DNA of 33,856 nucleotides, from assembly GCF_000685155.1 (NCBI RefSeq), contig NZ_JMIY01000003.1, positions 329,061-362,916 on the forward strand, in the 5' to 3' direction. This DNA is from Candidatus Methanoperedens nitratireducens. Lineage in GTDB: Archaea; Halobacteriota; Methanosarcinia; Methanosarcinales; Methanoperedenaceae. Positions 5,426-33,855 of the stretch are shown here, piece by piece (the first letter of the stretch is position 1; each line of letters starts with the position of its first letter). The translations under genes were made by a program, and so were the position numbers. The notes under the pieces were generated by a model that was given only the letters and a program-made list of their open reading frames with translations, had not been told where the DNA came from and ran no database searches.

Positions 5426-6847
5426 ATGTGGGCAGGTATAAATGAACTGAGAGAGAGGATCCAGGATGAATCCTCAGAAGAAGTTGTGTACGAGTACCTT
5501 GAGAGGATCGAATCAAGTAAGCTTAACGCCTTTATCACAGTTGCCCGTGAAAGTGCCCTTACGCGTGCCAGGGAGATCGATTCAGAAGGTCATGATGGCC
5601 AGCTTGCAGGCATACCTGTTGCCATCAAGGATAATATCTCAACGGCCGGCATACAGACCACATGTGCCTCAAAGATCCTGACCGGCTATATCCCGCCTTA
5701 TGATGCCCATGTGATAGAGAGGCTAAAGGATGCAGGCGCCGTGATTATCGGAAAGACCAACATGGATGAGTTTGCCATGGGAACATCGACAGAAACAAGC
5801 TTCTTTGGTCCGACACTCAACCCCTGGGATCTGGACAGGGTACCGGGCGGGTCATCAGGCGGTAGCGCAGCAGCAGTGGCAGGCGGAGAAGCGCCTTTTG
5901 CCCTTGGTTCTGATACAGGAGGCTCAGTCCGCTGTCCGGCATCGTTTTGTGGTGTGGTCGGATTAAAACCCACATACGGTGTGGTATCACGCTACGGGCT
6001 CGTCTCTTACGCCAACTCACTTGAGCAGATAGGGCCGTTTGCCACGAATGTCCGCGATCTGGCAGCCCTTTTTGACGTGATCGCAGGTAATGATGCCCGG
6101 GATTCAACATCTATTGATACAGAAGTGAACTATTCATCATCGCTTAAGGATGATATAAGGGGACTGAAGATCGGCGTGCCGGAGGAATACTTCGGGGAAG
6201 GGACTGATAAGAAAGTAGAGAGGGCTGTGTGGGATGCGATCCATACACTCGAGGACCTGGGGGCAAGCTGGAGCGGGGTAAGGATGCCGCATACAGGACA
6301 CGCCCTCTCAGCATATTATATAATCGCAATGAGTGAAGCTTCTTCCAACCTTGCACGGTTTGACGGGATGAGATACGGGCTTCGCACAGAGGACAGCGAC
6401 TGGCACACCACATTCTCACAGACAAGAGCAGCCGGGTTTGGCGATGAAGTAAAGCGGAGGATAATACTGGGAACGTATGCGCTATCTGCCGGGTACCATG
6501 ATCGATACTACTTAAAAGCCCTGCGCGTGAGAACACTTATAAAGCAGGATTTTGAGCGTGCATTCAGGGATCTGGATGTTCTCATCACACCCACAATGCC
6601 GTACCCTGCATTTCGGATCGGGGAAAAAATAGGCGATCCGCTGTCACTGTATCTTGCTGATGTGGACACCGTCCCTGTAAACCTTGCAGGGGTTCCTTCT
6701 ATTTCCATATCATGCGGTTTCGCGGAAGGATTACCCATCGGGATGCAGATCATAGGCAAGCACTTTGATGAGGCTACTATCCTGAGGACTGCTTATACAT
6801 TCGAAGAGAATACTGATTTTCACAATAGAAGACCGGAGGGGTTATGA
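5426..6847 (+). CDS. gatA: Asp/Glu-tRNA amidotransferase subunit A (amidase)
   Basis: GatA, 473 residues, is the glutaminase subunit: it hydrolyses glutamine and passes ammonia through a channel to GatB. The amidase-signature triad is complete: K68 in VAIKDN, cis-Ser S143 in [11 protein letters not shown] and nucleophile S167 in [11 protein letters not shown]. The spacing (75 and 24) equals that of characterised GatA proteins. The ATG follows gatC directly, and the TGA overlaps the gatB ATG by 4 bases (ATGA), so expression is coupled. The N-terminus is shorter than in many bacterial GatA proteins by about ten residues. Nothing else is unusual. Confidence 0.97.
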
Positions 6848-8262
6848 CATACGAGAACCCGGATGGAGTGAAGATAGGACTTGAGGTCCATGTGCAGTTG
6901 AACCGGCTAAAAACAAAGGTATTCTGCGGATGCACCACGGATTATCACAGCGATCCCCCGAACACCCATGTCTGTCCTGTGTGTCTCGGTCTCCCAGGCT
7001 CATTACCTGTGATAAATAAAAAGGCAGTGGAAGCAGCTATAAAAGTAGGTCTTGCACTTAATTGCAGGATAGAGGAGCATACGCAGTTTTACCGCAAGAA
7101 CTACTACTATCCCGATCTCCCGAAGGGCTTTCAGATCACGCAGTACGATTTCCCCATCTCAAGCGGGGGCTATATCACTATCGAGGGTGAGGACGGGGAA
7201 CATAAAGTCAGGATCACGCGTGCCCATATGGAAGAAGATCCGGGCAGGCTTGTTCATGAGGGCACGATCGACAGATCAAAGTATACTCTCATCGATTACA
7301 ACCGCTCAGGCATGGCGCTGCTTGAGATCGTGAGCGAGCCGGATATCAGGAGTCCAAAAGAGGCGCGGCGGTATCTTGATAAGCTTCGGAACATCCTTGA
7401 GTATCTTGATGTTTTCGACGGGAATCTTGAAGGCGCCCTGAGAGTGGATGCCAATGTCTCTATAATGGGTGGCCAGCGTGCTGAGGTCAAGAACATCTCA
7501 TCGCATAAGGGTGCTGAGCGCGCACTGCTTTATGAGATAGTAAGACAGAAAAACGTTATACGGCGGAGAGGCACGGTTGTACAGGAGACGCGCCACTTCG
7601 ACGAGGCAAGAGAGATCACTGTATCAATGAGAACAAAGGAAGAGGCGCACGATTACCGCTATTTCCCCGAGCCAGATCTTGTGCCCTTGAAGATATCAAG
7701 CTGGGCGCCTGCGATTGCAGAGACGCTGCCTGAGCTTCCGGATGCAAGACGGCTTCGATTTATTGAGCAGTACGGGATAACGGATGAACACGCAAAAGCC
7801 CTCACATCAGAGTTGAAGCTTGCAGTATTCTATGAGGATGTTGCAGGGAGAGTTGATCCCAGAATGGCTGCTGTATGGGTAAGCGATGTTCTTAAAGGAG
7901 AATTGAACTACCGCGACCTCACGATTGACGCTTTCAGAAAAGAGCATATGATATCGATAATCGAGATTCTTGCAAATAATAAGATCACAGAGGACGGTGC
8001 TGTTGATATAATAAGGACGATCCTTGATAAAGGCGGCTCGCCTGAGGAAATAGTTAAAGAGAAAGGTCTCCTTAAAGTTGAAGGGGATATCGTTGAGACA
8101 GCGGCGCAGGAGGCAATAAAGGAAAATCCGCAGGCTGTAGCTGATTATAAAGCTGGTAAAGAAAAGGCCCTCAACGCGCTTGTTGGACAGGTAATGAAAA
8201 AGACAAAAGGAAGGGCAGATGCAAGGACTGTAAGGGAAGTACTGCTGAAGGAATTGAAATAA
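6844..8262 (+). CDS. gatB: Asp/Glu-tRNA amidotransferase subunit B
   Basis: GatB, 472 residues, binds the misacylated tRNA, activates the side-chain carboxylate with ATP and completes amidation with ammonia from GatA. The N-terminal [10 protein letters not shown] motif, the zinc site (C28-x-C30 and C44-x2-C47), the [16 protein letters not shown] segment and the GEADxN-like RVDANVS motif are all present. The C-terminal helical plus YqeY-like tail (about 300-472), which senses the tRNA elbow, is full length and ends in [12 protein letters not shown]. The start overlaps gatA by 4 bases. It is a paralogue of gatE at 29148 in the same window. Confidence 0.97.
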
Positions 8263-22329: not shown

Positions 22330-22380
22330 ATGGCAAAAAAGGAAAAGAAGCCAAAAGGGAAGCCAGAGCCTAAGAAGTAA
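22330..22380 (+). CDS. Lys/Pro-rich 16-residue microprotein
   Basis: The ORF MAKKEKKPKGKPEPKK is too short for most gene finders. It is supported by a perfect AGGAGG ribosome-binding site 9 bases upstream, a TATA box, and a T-rich terminator directly after it. Nine of sixteen residues are Lys, so it would be strongly basic and could bind RNA, DNA or ribosomes. It lies alone between ccmE and the convergent prenyl operon. The alternative is that the transcript is a small RNA and the ORF incidental. Function unknown. Confidence 0.5.
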   Translation: MAKKEKKPKGKPEPKK

Positions 22381-22437: not shown

Positions 22438-23415
22438 CTATCCTTCTCTGATTATCATATCTGCAATCCCGGATGGTGCATCAAGCAGGACCTTCTTATA
22501 TTCTATGTATAGCACATCTATGGAGGATATTATTCCCCTGGATCTGATAATCTCCTTATCAAGAATGCTGCTGATGGTTCTCTGTACGTCCTCATGTGAC
22601 CATAACTGCTTTATCCTGGATAGATGCGGTGACAGGCTCTTACGATGCAGAAGGGCTTCTTTAACAGGTCTATCTATGTTCATGCACTCAAGAAGCAACA
22701 GCTCTGAACCAAATCCGCTGATCTTTTTCCCTTCAATTACCTGCTCTAAGTCTGCTATATCATCAGCTATCTGCATTACTTTACCACATCTGAGCCCGTA
22801 TTCTGCAAACGATATAGTATCTTTCCTGTACATGCATGTCCCATCAGATACCGGGTTACAGCCGTCGGATCTTATCAGATATCCCCACGCAGTAGCCAGG
22901 CTGAATAATTTTCCAGTCTTCCGGGTGATTATGGCATCATAGAGTTTAATTGCTGGCAGGTCAGGTCTGTGGAACAGCTCTTTTATAATACCTGAGACCA
23001 TTCCTCTTTGCGTCTCTGCCAGCATCCGTACATATGATTCTCCGTATTGTGCCACGATATCATACGGAATACTCAGAACATCTATCGTATCCAGCATAGC
23101 CTTCTTATGCCCTCTGGTAAGATGCAGAGTTGTCAGCCCACGGCGCTCTGTATCCTCATCGAGCATATCATCAAGGATAAGCGAGGCACTATGAGCAAGC
23201 TCAACAGCGCAGGCCAGATCAAGTGCACAGGATCGATCCTGATCTTTATCAGATACAGCATCAAAAACCAGAAGTAAAAGCCCTGCACGTATTCTTTTTC
23301 CTCGCAGTAGCATCGGAAGTATATCCGGATCTGATATTTTTTTCTCAGCTATGAGTTTTATACGATCATTTATCCCTGGTCTTATTTGATCAAGATATTC
23401 CTTGAATGTTCTCAT
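22438..23415 (-). CDS. Trans-polyprenyl diphosphate synthase (long-chain type)
   Basis: 325 residues of the trans-isoprenyl diphosphate synthase family, which condenses IPP with allylic diphosphates. Substrate motif RGKRIRAG (38-45), first Asp-rich motif D82-D-M-L-D86, K-T-G at 166-168 and second Asp-rich motif D218-D-I-A-D222 are all intact, so it should be active. Residues 4 and 5 before the first motif are small (S78, A77), which in this family permits chains of C20 or longer (inference). It is the last gene of a four-gene operon with a reductase and two membrane proteins, 8 bases behind its neighbour. The C-terminal helices are diverged from standard GGPP synthases. Confidence 0.88.
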   Translation of the reverse strand: MRTFKEYLDQIRPGINDRIKLIAEKKISDPDILPMLLRGKRIRAGLLLLVFDAVSDKDQDRSCALDLACAVELAHSASLILDDMLDEDTERRGLTTLHLTRGHKKAMLDTIDVLSIPYDIVAQYGESYVRMLAETQRGMVSGIIKELFHRPDLPAIKLYDAIITRKTGKLFSLATAWGYLIRSDGCNPVSDGTCMYRKDTISFAEYGLRCGKVMQIADDIADLEQVIEGKKISGFGSELLLLECMNIDRPVKEALLHRKSLSPHLSRIKQLWSHEDVQRTISSILDKEIIRSRGIISSIDVLYIEYKKVLLDAPSGIADMIIREG

Positions 23416-23423
23416 TATCTACC

Positions 23424-24101
23424 CTATCGCATCCACACCCTTCCAGAGGATAATGCACCGGCGAGTGCGTATATCAAAAGGAAATGTAGTCCGAGTAACC
23501 TCCATGCAATCTTATATTCCTGCGTCTTGGTGTGCTCATACAGTGCAAGCATCACATAGCCATAACCAAAACCGAATATACCAAGACCTGCTATGATAAC
23601 CGGGTTTACATCCAGACCGGCAGCAAGCACCTGTGCAAGATAAGATGATACCGGTATTGCCGCCATACCCAGGGCGCCGAACTCTACTGTATGGAAGCTC
23701 CAGAGTTCAAGACCGTATAACACGCAGAAAAGTATGCCAGTACCAACTGCCACACCGGGAAATGGAGATTCCAGCAGGCGGTTTGCGTATATCCCTATCA
23801 ATGATGCCAGTATGAACAGACAGACACCTGCTGATACAAGAGTGGCATCACCGAATACGGTTCTCCAGGGTTTCCCTGCAAGGGTAGTATCATCAAGCAT
23901 GTGCTCGCCATATAGTAAAAGAAACACAACTGCAAGAGATAGAACCAGAACTGCATAATCTATGACTTGAAGTGCGACTGTCCCGACTATGACAAGAGAC
24001 AGAAATGCCAGCATGAAGGGCATGTGTATAAGGGTGAACAGGCCGCCCGGGACACTTTTATTATATACCAGGTATCTATACCACTCTAACTGCCGGTTCA
24101 T
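23424..24101 (-). CDS. Polytopic membrane protein of the prenyl operon (UbiA-like candidate)
   Basis: 225 residues with about seven membrane helices and a short cytoplasmic loop after the second, containing G-E-H67-M-L-D70-D71. The position of this His/Asp loop resembles the first Asp-rich loop of UbiA prenyltransferases, but the motif is not the canonical NDxxD. It is a distant paralogue of the protein at 25082: both begin WY...(I/L)H-P, and both have the HxxD loop after the second helix. Overlap with the upstream flavoprotein is 4 bases. It is probably a membrane prenyl-transfer or lipid-processing enzyme. I do not recognise a named family. Confidence 0.65.
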   Translation of the reverse strand: MNRQLEWYRYLVYNKSVPGGLFTLIHMPFMLAFLSLVIVGTVALQVIDYAVLVLSLAVVFLLLYGEHMLDDTTLAGKPWRTVFGDATLVSAGVCLFILASLIGIYANRLLESPFPGVAVGTGILFCVLYGLELWSFHTVEFGALGMAAIPVSSYLAQVLAAGLDVNPVIIAGLGIFGFGYGYVMLALYEHTKTQEYKIAWRLLGLHFLLIYALAGALSSGRVWMR

Positions 24102-25078
24102 TTCCTCGCCCTCATCAACATCTTCAAAGCATCCCAGAGATGAAGCTTCATATTCATCCTCTTTGTAGTTTCTTTAAGTATCAGGCCGTCTCTTATACCA
24201 ATCCGCTCTCCTCTCCTGAGCCTGTCCACTACCCTGCGTTCCTCTTCCATCCATGAGAACTCATTAAGTATCGCACGCTCATATGCAAGAGGATAATCCC
24301 AGTTCTTAGCTAATATCTGTGCGCTTCTCATCCCGGGAATGATACCCTCGCCTGCAAGCGGAGCCACGCATCCGATCGCTTCGCCTGTACCCCATATATT
24401 TTTGGATATGTACGGTCTGCTGCCGAGCGGTGCGGTTAAGCGAACTCTACTGGCGCAGCTACAGAGTACCTCCCTTTTTTTATTTCCATCGCCTTGTTTA
24501 ACCCAGCTCAGGTTTTTGAGCATATCATACGGCTTGACCACAAGACTGCCTGCCCCTATATGATATATATCATCGGATAGTGGAAAAATCCATGCATACC
24601 CTATCCTGCTGATCTTAATACTCATATCAAGAGGTTCTGAGCTGCGAACACAGTACTGGATACATGGAAAGATAAGATCATCCTTTATCTCTGGTAAATA
24701 TGCACGTAAAACACCGGTAGCATCAATTACCCTGTCGTATTCTGCAGTATCTATCGGTGATCGTTGTATTACTGCATCCTGCAGCAGATCTGATATGAGA
24801 AGCGGCTTATCAAAGGTCAGAGCATATGCTTCTATTCTCATCTCATCCATCATAATATGATCAAACTGCATCCGTGTGTATTTGGCCGGATCAAGTCCAG
24901 CATGCTCAACAAGCGGCTCAAACCCAAGTGAAGTACCCCAGGCACACGGGCTGATATCGCAGTTTGTTTTATGCTGCTGTTCCTGTTCAAATACAGATAC
25001 ATCATCGAATCCCTGGTTGCGCAGCAGCCTGTACAGGTATGCACCTGATATTCCTGCGCCAGCAATTGCTATTCTCAT
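24098..25078 (-). CDS. FAD-dependent geranylgeranyl-reductase-like oxidoreductase
   Basis: 326 residues. N-terminal FAD Rossmann motif IAGAGISGAYLYRLL (GxGxxG) with the acidic end of strand 2 in VFEQE, a substrate domain from about 110 to 235, and the second FAD motif GTGEAIGCVAPLAGEGIIPGM near 250-275, where the PLAGEGI turn is that of geranylgeranyl/archaeol reductases. Such enzymes saturate isoprenoid double bonds. It is shorter than archaeal GGR proteins (about 390-400) and less similar to them than those are to each other, so its substrate may be the product of the neighbouring polyprenyl synthase rather than archaeol. Third from last codons RARK suggest a basic membrane-surface tail. 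Confidence 0.78.
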   Translation of the reverse strand: MRIAIAGAGISGAYLYRLLRNQGFDDVSVFEQEQQHKTNCDISPCAWGTSLGFEPLVEHAGLDPAKYTRMQFDHIMMDEMRIEAYALTFDKPLLISDLLQDAVIQRSPIDTAEYDRVIDATGVLRAYLPEIKDDLIFPCIQYCVRSSEPLDMSIKISRIGYAWIFPLSDDIYHIGAGSLVVKPYDMLKNLSWVKQGDGNKKREVLCSCASRVRLTAPLGSRPYISKNIWGTGEAIGCVAPLAGEGIIPGMRSAQILAKNWDYPLAYERAILNEFSWMEEERRVVDRLRRGERIGIRDGLILKETTKRMNMKLHLWDALKMLMRARK

Positions 25079-25081
25079 TAT

Positions 25082-25795
25082 TTACCTCAGAAGGAAAGAG
25101 AATGCCAGAAAATAACTCATGAGGCATAAGAGCTTAAGAGCAGTCTCAGGTTTATGTGTATAGTATTCAATGCGCTTTACTGCAGTGGCTTTGCCATGTT
25201 TCCCTTCATCTTCGGCATAGCTCTTCCGTATCGCCCTTACATACCTTGATAGGGTGATCTCTATAGCAGAGATCAATGCTGCCAGAGCCGCCCATGTAAG
25301 AAATGTTCCATTGAGCGTTAATGTATTCATATAAAACCCGACCATTACAGGGATGAATCCGAATGATACTGCAAACCAGAAATCATTGTGAAAGAATCCA
25401 TTCATGAATCTGGAGTTCGGATATGCCCATACGAAAAAAGTCTGCAGAGGAATAATCCACAGCAGATGCCATGCAGCAAGTTTTACCATCCAGTATATGC
25501 CTATCAGCACGGCTATACTCACGGCGGCCAGTCCGAGCAGCAGCAGTTCTCCGGGTGCCAGGTATTTTACATAACTGCTGCCCATTCCTGGCAGTTGATC
25601 AAAGGCATGTGCTGCAATCCCAAGCCCGAGGAAGTACGCGATCATGATCCACACAAGAACATCCCACCTGTTAACACCTGCAATCCCGAACCCGATTGCA
25701 AGGAAGCTCAGGTTCATTGCTGTATATGGAAGGTGCAGTATAGTCCATATCTCAGCCTGCTTTGAGCCTTCAAGCTGATACCAGGTCTTTTTCAT
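25082..25795 (-). CDS. Polytopic membrane protein of the prenyl operon (paralogue of 23424 gene)
   Basis: 237 residues from the ATG at 25795, chosen because a TATA-like stretch at 25836-25846 puts the transcript start near 25815, inside the longer TTG-initiated frame (25837). It has about six or seven membrane helices. After the second there is A-A-H63-A-F-D66-Q-L-P-G, the same kind of His/Asp loop as in its paralogue at 23424. The C-terminal part has a basic loop (SRYVRAIRKSYAEDEGKHGKA) before the last helix. First gene of the operon; 3 bases separate it from the flavoprotein. A UbiA-like prenyltransferase fold is possible but unproven. Confidence 0.65.
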   Translation of the reverse strand: MKKTWYQLEGSKQAEIWTILHLPYTAMNLSFLAIGFGIAGVNRWDVLVWIMIAYFLGLGIAAHAFDQLPGMGSSYVKYLAPGELLLLGLAAVSIAVLIGIYWMVKLAAWHLLWIIPLQTFFVWAYPNSRFMNGFFHNDFWFAVSFGFIPVMVGFYMNTLTLNGTFLTWAALAALISAIEITLSRYVRAIRKSYAEDEGKHGKATAVKRIEYYTHKPETALKLLCLMSYFLAFSFLLR

Positions 25796-25967
25796 GGTTA
25801 AAAATACATCACTCCCTGTAATTGTATAAGTTCTCAATATAATAGTATTATCAGCGTAACTACAAGAATTTTTCCGTTATTTGACGCAATTTTAATTATT
25901 AATAGGCTATATGGAGTATCTATCTATAAGTAATAATGAATATCTTTATATCTTATAGGAGATTACT

Positions 25968-26015
25968 ATGGTCATAACCAAGAATTTGGAGGCATATAAA
26001 TGGCTGATTTATTGA
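25968..26015 (+). CDS. Overlapping 15-residue leader ORF in front of cooS
   Basis: ATG at 25968 with its own ribosome-binding site (AGGAG, 25957-25961) encodes MVITKNLEAYKWLIY and stops at 26013-26015, 16 bases inside cooS and in another frame. The cooS ribosome-binding site (GGAGG, 25988-25992) is inside this ORF. Ribosomes on the leader must pass over that site, so leader translation can couple to or interfere with cooS translation. Supported by position and two good ribosome-binding sites only; there is no evidence for a stable peptide. Confidence 0.45.
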   Translation: MVITKNLEAYKWLIY

Positions 26016-29147: not shown

Positions 29148-31040
29148 ATGGATCACGACTACAGGGCACTTGGATTAAAAGCAGGACTTGAGATTCACCA
29201 GCAACTTGATACTGAGCAAAAACTCTTCTGCGGCAGCCCTACCCTTCTTCGTGATATAAAGGAATCCAATTTTGAATTCATGAGGTATCTTCGACCGACA
29301 CAGAGCGAGATGGGTATGGTTGACAGGGCAGCGCTTGAGGAGGTAAAATTTACAAAAAAATTCATCTATAAAGCATATGATACCACCTGTCTGGTCGAGG
29401 CGGATGAAGAGCCGCCGCGGGAATTGAATCAGGAGGCTCTGGACTATGCGCTTATGATCGCACGCATGTTGAATATGAAGATCGTGGATGAGCTCTATAC
29501 CATGCGGAAGATAGTTATTGACGGCTCCAATACATCAGGCTTCCAGAGATCGGGTCTTCTTGCCACCCAGGGATATCTTGATTCATCCTCTTGTCGCGTG
29601 GGGATAGATGTGCTCTGCCTTGAGGAAGAGGCTGCCCAGAAAGTTGAAGAGCGCAAAGATTCAGTGGTTTATTCACTTGACCGCCTCGGTATCCCGCTTG
29701 TAGAGATCGGAACCGCGCCGGATATCATCTCACCTTCGCATGCAAGGGAGGTCGCAGAGAAGCTCGGGATGATACTGCGCTCAACAGGCAAGGTCAAGCG
29801 CGGTCTTGGAACCATAAGGCAGGATATCAACATCTCAATAGCACAGGGCGCAAGGGTGGAGATAAAAGGCGTGCAGGCGCTTGAACTAATAGAGATGATC
29901 GTGGAGCGGGAGGTAGCAAGGCAGATCGCGCTTCTGGAGATAAGAGATGAACTTAGAAAAAGAGGTGCATCAATCCAGGATAGAATTGTGGATGTCACAC
30001 AGGTATTTGTGAACACATCTTCAAATGTAATATTAAAAGCATTGAGAGAAGGCACTGTACTTGCGGTAAACCTGCCCGGGTTTACAGGACTTGTGGGCAA
30101 AGAGATTCAGCCCGATAGGCGCCTGGGGACGGAATTCTCAGATTACGCCAAAAAAGCAGGTGTTGGAGGTATATTCCATACAGATGAGCTTCCAGATTAC
30201 GGCATAACAGAGGATGAGGTGAGCGCGCTCAGAGGAGCACTGGGAGCACAGGACAAAGATTGCGTGGTCATGGTTGCTGATACAAAGGAAAGAGCAAGGG
30301 GCGCGCTTGAGGCTGTGATCGCCCGTGCAAAAGAAGCACTTGTGGGCATCCCTGAAGAGACAAGACGGGCGCTTCCAGATGGGAATTCAGCCTATATGAG
30401 GCCGCTTCCCGGTGCAGCACGCATGTACCCGGAGACAGATGTTCCTCCTGTGGAAATAACAGAGGAGCGGATCCGTGGTATAAAACTACCTGAACTTATT
30501 GATGAGCGCAGATCAAGATACATAAAGCAGTTTAATTTGAATGAGGAACTCGCAGGGATGATCGCGAGATCAGAGGATTTTATTCTGTTTGAGAGAATTA
30601 TGCAGCAGGTACCGAACGCAAATGCGACTATGGTTGTGCGTACCCTTGAGACGACTTTACCTGAACTTGAAAAAGAGGGGATACCTGTAGATAATATTAC
30701 TGAGGGGCACCTTGTGGATCTTTTCAGATTTCACTCCGAGGGAAAGATCCCGAATGAAGCAATCGGCAATATCCTGAGAACGATTACAAATAAGCCTGAA
30801 CTTACAGTCGATAGGGCAGCCCAATCTCTTGGGATCGGGGTTGAGACCGGGGAATTAGAGGCCGTTATCGATAGGATCATAGAATCTAAAATCGATTTTA
30901 TTAAAGAAAGAGGATTGAATTCCGTTGGTCCTCTGATGGGCGTGGTCATGAAGGAATTCAGGGGCAAGGTAAGCGGCCAGGAGATCAACAGGCTTCTAAA
31001 AGAAAAAATCTCCAGGAAACTGGGGATGATGAACAGTTGA
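29148..31040 (+). CDS. gatE: Glu-tRNA(Gln) amidotransferase subunit E
   Basis: 630 residues, the archaeal GatE subunit. With GatD (not in this window) it converts Glu-tRNA(Gln) to Gln-tRNA(Gln). The core is GatB-like ([63 protein letters not shown]), with the AspRS-like insertion near 290-400 that is specific to GatE ([15 protein letters not shown]) and the C-terminal YqeY-like tail. The insertion is why it is 160 residues longer than GatB. The ATG at 29148 has only a weak upstream signal. gatD is usually unlinked in this group, so its absence is not odd. Confidence 0.96.
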
Positions 31041-32584: not shown

Positions 32585-32607
32585 ATACTCTCTTTTAACA
32601 AGAGTAT
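32585..32607. promoter_or_regulatory. Inverted repeat over the AbiEi start, operator candidate
   Basis: ATACTCT (32585-32591), 9 bases, then AGAGTAT (32601-32607), the last bases being the ATG of the AbiEi-like gene. A TATA-like AAATTTATTAAT lies at about 32559-32570, so the repeat spans the expected transcription start and the mRNA is probably leaderless. AbiEi proteins repress their own promoter at inverted repeats (known of the family). Confidence 0.55.
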
Positions 32608-33421
32608 GATTACACGAAACATAAAATTAGGAACAAATGAACTCAAGCTGCTATTTACTTTAGAAGAGGAGAATAAATCAGTCTTCTCAATAAACGATGC
32701 AAAGCGAATTCTCAGTACCTCGACCCCCTCTGTCTGGAATGTTATATACCGCTTAAAGAAGAAGGGAAGGATTGAAGAGATAGAAAAAGGAAAATACCTG
32801 CTGATACCAGCACGAGCAGGATACGAGGGATCATGGTCAGAAGTCCCATACCTACTCGTTCCTCATATCATAGATGTCTATTACATCGGCTTCTGGTCAG
32901 CCCTTAACTACTGGGGCATGACAGAACAGGTTCCCCGTGTGGTCTTTGTTGCGGCAACACAGAGGAAAAGAGATCTGGATTATGGAGCTACGCGGTTCGA
33001 ATTTGTCACATTGAAGAAAAAGAGGTTTTTCGGATATGTTGAAGAAAAGACCGCCAGGGGTACATTCAATATATCTTCGAGAGAGAAAACCATCATTGAC
33101 TGCATGTTATATCCAAAATACTGCGGCGGGATGGATGAAGCCATCAAAGGGATATGGAACGCCAGAGATGAACTGGATTTTGTAAAGCTGCTTGAATACT
33201 CAAAAAGACTGGGAGTGAGTGTGGTTACGAGGAGGGTTTGTTATGCGCTGGAATTGCTCGGGTTAGCAGAAGAAATATGTTCTGAGATAGCTTTGAGCAG
33301 GTTGAAAGGATATATGTGGCTTGATCCTCTCGGACCAAAGAGAGCTCTGGAATACTCTAAAAAATACAAACTCATTATAAACCGAACAAGGGATGAGCTG
33401 ATGGGCTGGATGAGGTATTAA
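32606..33421 (+). CDS. AbiEi-type antitoxin / transcriptional repressor
   Basis: 271 residues. N-terminal winged helix (about 12-70: NDAKRILSTSTPSVWNVIYRLKKKGRIEEIEKGKYLLIP), followed by the AbiEi core with YIGFWSALNYWGMTEQVPRVVFVAATQRKRD and REKTIIDCMLYPKYCGGMDEA, and a C-terminal helical region. This is the antitoxin of type IV toxin-antitoxin AbiE systems: it blocks the toxin's effect and represses the operon. The partner gene starts 2 bases after its stop. An operator-like inverted repeat covers its start codon. Confidence 0.9.
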   Translation: MITRNIKLGTNELKLLFTLEEENKSVFSINDAKRILSTSTPSVWNVIYRLKKKGRIEEIEKGKYLLIPARAGYEGSWSEVPYLLVPHIIDVYYIGFWSALNYWGMTEQVPRVVFVAATQRKRDLDYGATRFEFVTLKKKRFFGYVEEKTARGTFNISSREKTIIDCMLYPKYCGGMDEAIKGIWNARDELDFVKLLEYSKRLGVSVVTRRVCYALELLGLAEEICSEIALSRLKGYMWLDPLGPKRALEYSKKYKLIINRTRDELMGWMRY

Positions 33422-33423
33422 AA

Positions 33424-33855
33424 ATGGATGAAAATGAATTAAGAAGACGAGCCAGGAAAACAGGGTTCGATGTGGCGACCCTAGAAAAGGATTACGCACT
33501 GACATGGCTTCTCAGCGGCATTTACTGGGAGAACTCACAGCTCAGGGATATCCTCATCTTTAAAGGAGGGACGGCGATAAGGAAAGTTTACTTCCCTGAA
33601 TGGCGTCTTTCCGAGGATCTGGACTTCACGGTCATGCAGAAGATCGCCCCTCAGAGTTTGAAACAGGGTTTTGAGCAGGTTTTTATATCAATCAACAAGA
33701 GGAGCAGTATAGTTTATTCTTTCCGTGCTTTTAATGCAGGAGAGTATGCTATATTTGCTGATGTTCAGTTCCTGGGTCCGATAGGATTCAAGAATAAGAG
33801 CCTATCCGAAAAGTCCAGAAGCTCTGAACGTTATCCATGCACATGCGAAGTGTAA
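33424..33855 (+). pseudogene. AbiEii-type nucleotidyltransferase toxin, broken or cut off at the window edge
   Basis: The first 127 residues match the AbiEii/AbiGii toxin family: LEKDYALTWLL, and the nucleotidyltransferase core FKGGTAIRKVYFPEWRLSEDLDF with G48-G-T50 and the acidic pair D65-x-D67, then VQFLGPIGFKNK. Family members run to about 250-300 residues. Here the frame leaves the family pattern after residue about 127 and stops at 33855, one base before the window ends. One other forward frame stays open from about 33802 to the end. So there is either a frameshift, a junction, or an assembly-end error. AbiEii uses NTPs (GTP in the studied case) to inactivate a cell target. Confidence 0.8.

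Follow-up and report, generated by a model that had tools for sequence, protein, structure and literature searches.

What would a compact block of four prenyl-related genes make in the anaerobic methanotroph Candidatus Methanoperedens nitratireducens, and is its product a respiratory electron carrier? The block lies in a 33,856-nucleotide stretch of contig NZ_JMIY01000003.1 (positions 329,061 to 362,916; the whole stretch analysed is hereafter the window), in which four co-directional genes on the minus strand, transcribed in the order P4–P3–P2–P1, span positions 25795 to 22438. An initial annotation, made from the sequence, had proposed a tightly packed operon that could make a prenyl chain, saturate it in part and attach or flip it, giving a methanophenazine- or menaquinone-like carrier or a special lipid. 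Coordinates and spacings are as described there, with a gap of 3 bases between P4 and P3, an overlap of 4 bases between P3 and P2 and a gap of 8 bases between P2 and P1. Chain synthesis, saturation and a membrane step also find support, whereas a respiratory carrier as the product does not. Here we show that the operon is dispensable across the genus and is not the core menaquinone or methanophenazine pathway. We tentatively favour an optional, lineage-restricted prenyl-lipid tailoring operon, in which a pair of seven-transmembrane (7-TM) proteins would act in a UbiA-like role and whose product would be a partly saturated prenyl lipid or a modified quinone tail.

The main gain of our analysis is the placement of the reductase. 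P3 (24098 to 25078, minus strand) encodes a 326-residue protein with the flavin adenine dinucleotide (FAD)-binding motif GAGISG (GxGxxG), the segments SPCAWG and GEAIGC, and GYAWIFP (GYxWxFP). It matches the geranylgeranyl-reductase superfamily TIGR02032 at E = 2e-15, below the family cut-off, in keeping with the flavoprotein first proposed. A profile of P3 orthologues retrieved compact reductases (about 310–350 residues) in 54 of the 393 genomes sampled from the phylum, one of which adjoins an isocitrate dehydrogenase gene (icd) and has a Tyr150 that falls in GYAW. A Tyr150 has likewise been described for AF_0648 of Archaeoglobus fulgidus (PMC10821996). From this match and the icd neighbour, and with AF0647 taken to be the neighbour of AF_0648, we therefore equate this protein with AF_0648. 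AF_0648 is the one archaeal enzyme for which saturation of menaquinone tails has been demonstrated, its expression in Escherichia coli having given partly saturated menaquinone-8 (Hemmi 2005, as reported in PMC10821996). P3 and AF_0648 are 34% identical across 296 residues (E = 1e-50), whereas P3 matches canonical geranylgeranyl reductases from the order only near E = 1e-5. In a maximum-likelihood tree, a split with 100/100 support separates 35 proteins with the 'CAWG' signature, P3 and AF_0648 included, from seven canonical reductases. On these comparisons, we assign P3 to the AF_0648-type ('CAWG') prenyl reductases, apart from the lipid-type geranylgeranyl reductases. AF_0648 and P3 share their compact length, the CAWG and GEAIGC signatures, the catalytic motif GYAWxFP and a single clade, whereas AF_0648 adjoins icd and has neither a synthase nor a 7-TM partner; a prenyl operon surrounds only the P3 proteins of Methanoperedens.

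Remodelling of the menaquinone tail is the main rival, albeit a somewhat unlikely one. In such a scheme, P3 would reduce double bonds of the menaquinone made by the standard futalosine and UbiA pathway, P1 would give another tail length, and P2 and P4 would present the tail or exchange it. In favour of this rival, P3 is homologous to an enzyme shown to act on menaquinone (PMC10821996). Menaquinone genes occur in all Methanoperedens genomes, and a modified tail would be optional, which matches the distribution of the operon. However, the futalosine genes MqnA/D were found in 8 of 8 Archaeoglobaceae tested and in none of the 20 other CAWG-bearing genomes examined, so quinone is not the only likely substrate of the clade. 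Moreover, tail reduction alone requires neither a dedicated synthase nor a membrane pair.

Since CAWG reductases occur in those 20 genomes, the subfamily as defined by sequence is not confined to makers of futalosine-derived menaquinone. Stand-alone members occur in three more Methanoperedens genomes (46–49% identical to P3), and an ordinary UbiA gene directly precedes the CAWG reductase at five loci in other Halobacteriota (L111, L130, L131, L143 and L147; families f17, f27 and f28). The pairing of a membrane prenyl protein with a CAWG reductase thus recurs, which supports a tailoring operon of the kind we favour. As in the operon, these pairs place a gene for a membrane prenyl protein immediately next to one for an AF_0648-type reductase; they differ in that the membrane protein is a standard UbiA carrying NDxxDxxxD and that no synthase belongs to the pair. 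The tested CAWG-bearing genomes of f17, f27 and f28 are without MqnA/D. AF_0648-type reductases therefore make up a subfamily that is widespread in archaea. Many members adjoin a membrane prenyl protein and many belong to genomes that lack futalosine genes, so 'menaquinone-specific' may be too restrictive a name.

P1 (22438 to 23415, minus strand) encodes a 325-residue homologue of trans-polyprenyl diphosphate synthases. It matches PF00348 at E = 8e-29 and carries GKRxR, DDMLD (residues 82–86), RR, KT and DDIAD (residues 218–222), and so has the two DDxxD motifs originally noted. Its best profile and structure-sequence matches are the geranylfarnesyl and hexaprenyl diphosphate synthases of methanogens (NF040627 and NF040936) and Protein Data Bank entry 3ipi, with which it has both DDxxD motifs and GKRxR in common; it scores far under the cut-offs of the two families (72 of 600 bits) and is missing the GKxxxxD segment. 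P1 is 26–29% identical to the three other synthases of the window's own genome (L063, L064 and L055). The residue at position −5 of the first Asp motif is Ala77 in P1, Ser in L063 and Phe in L064; by the known chain-length rule, the alanine, the single residue that points to a long chain, suggests a product longer than those of the resident enzymes.

P4 (25082 to 25795, minus strand; 237 residues), the first gene of the operon, and P2 (23424 to 24101, minus strand; 225 residues) each encode a protein with seven hydrophobic segments by hydropathy. The Smith–Waterman score between them is 80, a value reached by none of 1,000 hydropathy-preserving shuffles (mean 40, standard deviation 6.6). In addition, a search with P2 of one species retrieves P4 of a second species (E = 4e-5, about 150 residues aligned), and a P4 profile ranks all P2 copies first against about 310 other proteins. 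That the two are paralogues, as the annotation had supposed, is accordingly well supported at the sequence level. Both have an HxP in TM1, an HxxD at the end of TM2, a Tyr at the end of TM4, a His in the next loop and an IPV in TM5; the invariant residues are H21xP23, H63xxD66, Y125, H136 and E179 in P4, and H26xP28, H67xxD70, Y129 and H137 in P2, with the two HxxD motifs invariant in five orthologue sets. Neither protein has a Pfam or NCBIfam match at a meaningful E-value, and the carotenoid, CruF, lycopene-cyclase and sterol-isomerase families, considered as candidates, likewise gave no match in these databases.

The initial annotation placed a His/Asp loop where UbiA has its Asp-rich loop. 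The position agrees: HxxD follows TM2, where UbiA has the DxxD of its first Asp-rich motif, although the third Asp of that motif is missing. P2 and P4 also share with the UbiA superfamily (PF01040) the succession of TM1, TM2, a charged loop with (D/H)xxD, TM3–TM6, a polar loop and TM7. Furthermore, three UbiA-family proteins of Methanoperedens that pass the Pfam cut-off carry NHxxD or GHxxD in motif 1 (L059:1095-2030, on C2 of the window's own genome, L065 and L068), and this use of HxxD for DxxD in true UbiAs of the genus supports the reading we favour. The homology itself, which may still exist, reached no significance in Pfam, profile–profile and decoy comparisons, described below.

The residue pattern also allows a reading in which P2 and P4 are not transferases: they could be diphosphate-removing enzymes or flippases, with a saturated polyprenol, polyprenyl phosphate or apolar isoprenoid as the product. 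The lack of detectable UbiA homology and of a second Asp-rich motif fits this proposal, and further invariant residues (H21, H136 and E179 in P4) could form a metal site. Nevertheless, a Pfam search revealed no similarity to PAP2, BacA or another known phosphatase or flippase, and the role is guessed from the residue pattern; we regard it as improbable.

In the tailoring operon that we prefer, P1 would build or bind a long prenyl diphosphate, and P3 would saturate this chain in part, drawing its electrons from a low-potential donor. The P2/P4 pair would then keep the chain in the membrane, where the His/Asp loop after TM2 would transfer it to an acceptor, much as the Asp-rich loop of UbiA does. 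The product would be an accessory one, either a prenyl lipid with partial saturation or another type of quinone tail, rather than an essential electron carrier; the patchy presence of the operon and its decay in two genomes fit such a product. The identities of P1 and P3, the integrity of the operon, the paralogy of P2 and P4 and the dispensability of the operon are established by our data, whereas the chain length, the direction of the pathway, catalysis by P2 and P4 and the product are inferred. In a bolder version, which we consider quite unlikely, P2 and P4 would be the first members of a new family of membrane enzymes, heterodimers that transfer prenyl groups and carry a His/Asp metal site where UbiA has its Asp-rich motifs. 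Together with P1 and P3 they would make an undescribed, partly saturated prenyl lipid in some Methanoperedens only.

Several observations weigh against this assignment of roles. PF01040 gave no match to P2 or P4 at E-values up to 1, and in profile–profile comparison with a 27-sequence UbiA profile the two ranked midway among 30 membrane decoys, using a P2/P4 profile whose five orthologues are too few for sensitivity. The second Asp-rich motif, which follows TM6 in UbiA, is not present: the corresponding loops are RYVRAIRK in P4 and YEHTKTQEYK in P2, both without Asp. P2 and P4 have 7 TM segments as against 8–9 in UbiA, although the same hydropathy count detects 7–8 in UbiA itself. The two AlphaFold models of these proteins, each built from only four near-identical sequences, are uninformative (predicted local distance difference test scores of 43.7 and 41.5; predicted template-modelling scores of 0.30 and 0.29). 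On the side of the synthase, P1 and its orthologues have lost the GKxxxxD segment that follows the second Asp motif in L063, L064 and L055, so P1 may be a modified or partner subunit instead of a normal elongating synthase. The operon is without a head-group gene. Finally, genome G020 has lost P1 and the C terminus of P2, yet its P3 and P4 frames stay open. Alignments of a P2 segment with reductase-linked UbiAs (z-scores of 5–7) were discarded as out of register, and a P-type ATPase decoy scored higher.

A quinone pool in the membrane links methane oxidation in Methanoperedens to the reduction of nitrate or metals. If an accessory prenyl lipid or altered prenyl tail is indeed made in some species, it would be a source of strain differences in membrane energetics.

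The distribution of the operon bears on a carrier role. Of the 31 Methanoperedens genomes, 4 have the complete operon intact and 2 have decayed copies; P2 was found in five genomes and P4 in six, one of the latter truncated. No other genus had P4 among the 238 genomes sampled from the class (39 genera, a sample that should include methanophenazine makers, with Methanosarcina presumably present) or the 393 from the phylum, and searches for carriage on viruses or plasmids found no homologue. Weak matches to the P2 profile in two other genera (G041 and G106) consist of a P-type ATPase region and a non-homologous stretch, and are attributed to chance. P2 and P4 form an orphan membrane family with no detectable relatives outside Methanoperedens, now with a defined catalytic hypothesis. 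In a GatE tree, intact copies fall in three places (G000 with G024, G008, and G021); G012, the sister of G008, has no operon, and G017 and G020, relatives of G021, have decayed copies. This pattern suggests either repeated loss or transfer among members of the genus.

By comparison, the futalosine menaquinone genes (PF02621) are present in all 31 genomes, in agreement with published analyses (PMC7327174). UbiA genes are likewise found in 31 of 31, with eight in the window's genome. Menaquinone synthesis therefore does not depend on the operon. A core role in menaquinone or methanophenazine biosynthesis is highly improbable, even though a polyprenyl synthase and a menaquinone-type prenyl reductase share one operon: the intact operon is rare where futalosine genes are universal, the membrane genes occur in no other genus of the class, and Candidatus Methanoperedens sp. 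BLZ2, a laboratory lineage presumably from the same enrichment line as MPEBLZ, has only a relic of the operon. Published data on the MPEBLZ enrichment show menaquinone-like compounds but no methanophenazine (PMC4683180). A phylogenetic profile against carrier presence had been named beforehand as the check on the carrier proposal, and its outcome speaks against that proposal.

The genes nevertheless form a unit. P4, P3 and P2 are present in the same order in five species, four of which also have P1, and the order P4–P3–P2–P1 is constant in four genomes despite clade-specific flanking genes: carbon monoxide (CO) dehydrogenase and gatE in G000 and G024, a patatin-like gene in G008, and a fused cbb3-type oxidase with a ZIP-like gene in G021. 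ABC-type genes flank the copy in G020. A constant order with different flanks shows that the block is a unit and not a chance adjacency. The ratio of nonsynonymous to synonymous substitutions (dN/dS) between clades is 0.09–0.25 for all four genes, indicating purifying selection, and rises as high as 0.40 only for P2 of G020, the genome in which the synthase is lost and the P2 C terminus replaced. In BLZ2 (G017), a single deletion has removed P3 and P2 entirely and fused the N-terminal 90 residues of P4 to the C-terminal third of P1, so that only the two ends of the operon are left. The patchy presence and the decay of 2 of 6 copies might suggest chance neighbours or a functionless relic, decaying or mobile, but such readings are extremely improbable given the constant order, tight spacing and dN/dS values and a window with no mobile-element genes around the operon.

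In the window, a divergent Ni-CO dehydrogenase gene and gatE flank the operon on one side, and a ccmE-like gene and an ammonium transporter gene on the other. The same block occurs in the nearest relative, Candidatus Methanoperedens nitroreducens isolate BE2012_43_12 (GatE 94% identical). The intergenic stretch 25796 to 25999, which separates the operon from the divergent CO dehydrogenase gene, presumably holds the promoter, and a Shine–Dalgarno-like stretch, GGGAGTGATG, lies about 12 bases 5′ of the P4 ATG. A functional link with CO dehydrogenase and gatE was rejected, the adjacency being found in G000 and G024 only. A link with a terminal oxidase was also considered: in G021 the gene for the fused cbb3-type oxidase precedes the operon, but neither G000 nor G024 gave a full-length match to COX1, and the adjacency is therefore incidental. 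That oxidase (L009:1971-4691), from an anaerobic methanotroph, is a 906-residue open reading frame (ORF) in which COX1, FixO and cbb3 cytochrome c domains are joined, giving CcoN-O-P as a single chain, and COX1-covering open frames of 875–990 residues occur in about ten Methanoperedens genomes.

A gene with DUF2769 and glutamate-synthase domains (L009:169-1647, L012:8889-10454 and equivalents) adjoins the operon in G017, G020 and G021 and lies a few kilobases from the stand-alone reductase in G005, G007 and G009, which hints at an ancestral location. Between the end of the synthase gene and the ccmE-like gene, the window contains a 16-codon lysine-rich ORF, MAKKEKKPKGKPEPKK (22330 to 22380, plus strand). 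Amidase and GatB-like genes occur in the same window as gatE (5426 to 8262 and 29148 to 31040). AbiEi-like and AbiEii-like genes, candidates for a type IV toxin–antitoxin system, occupy positions 32606 to 33855, the second being cut by the window end, and such genes are also found near the operon relic of BLZ2 (L011:971-2571).

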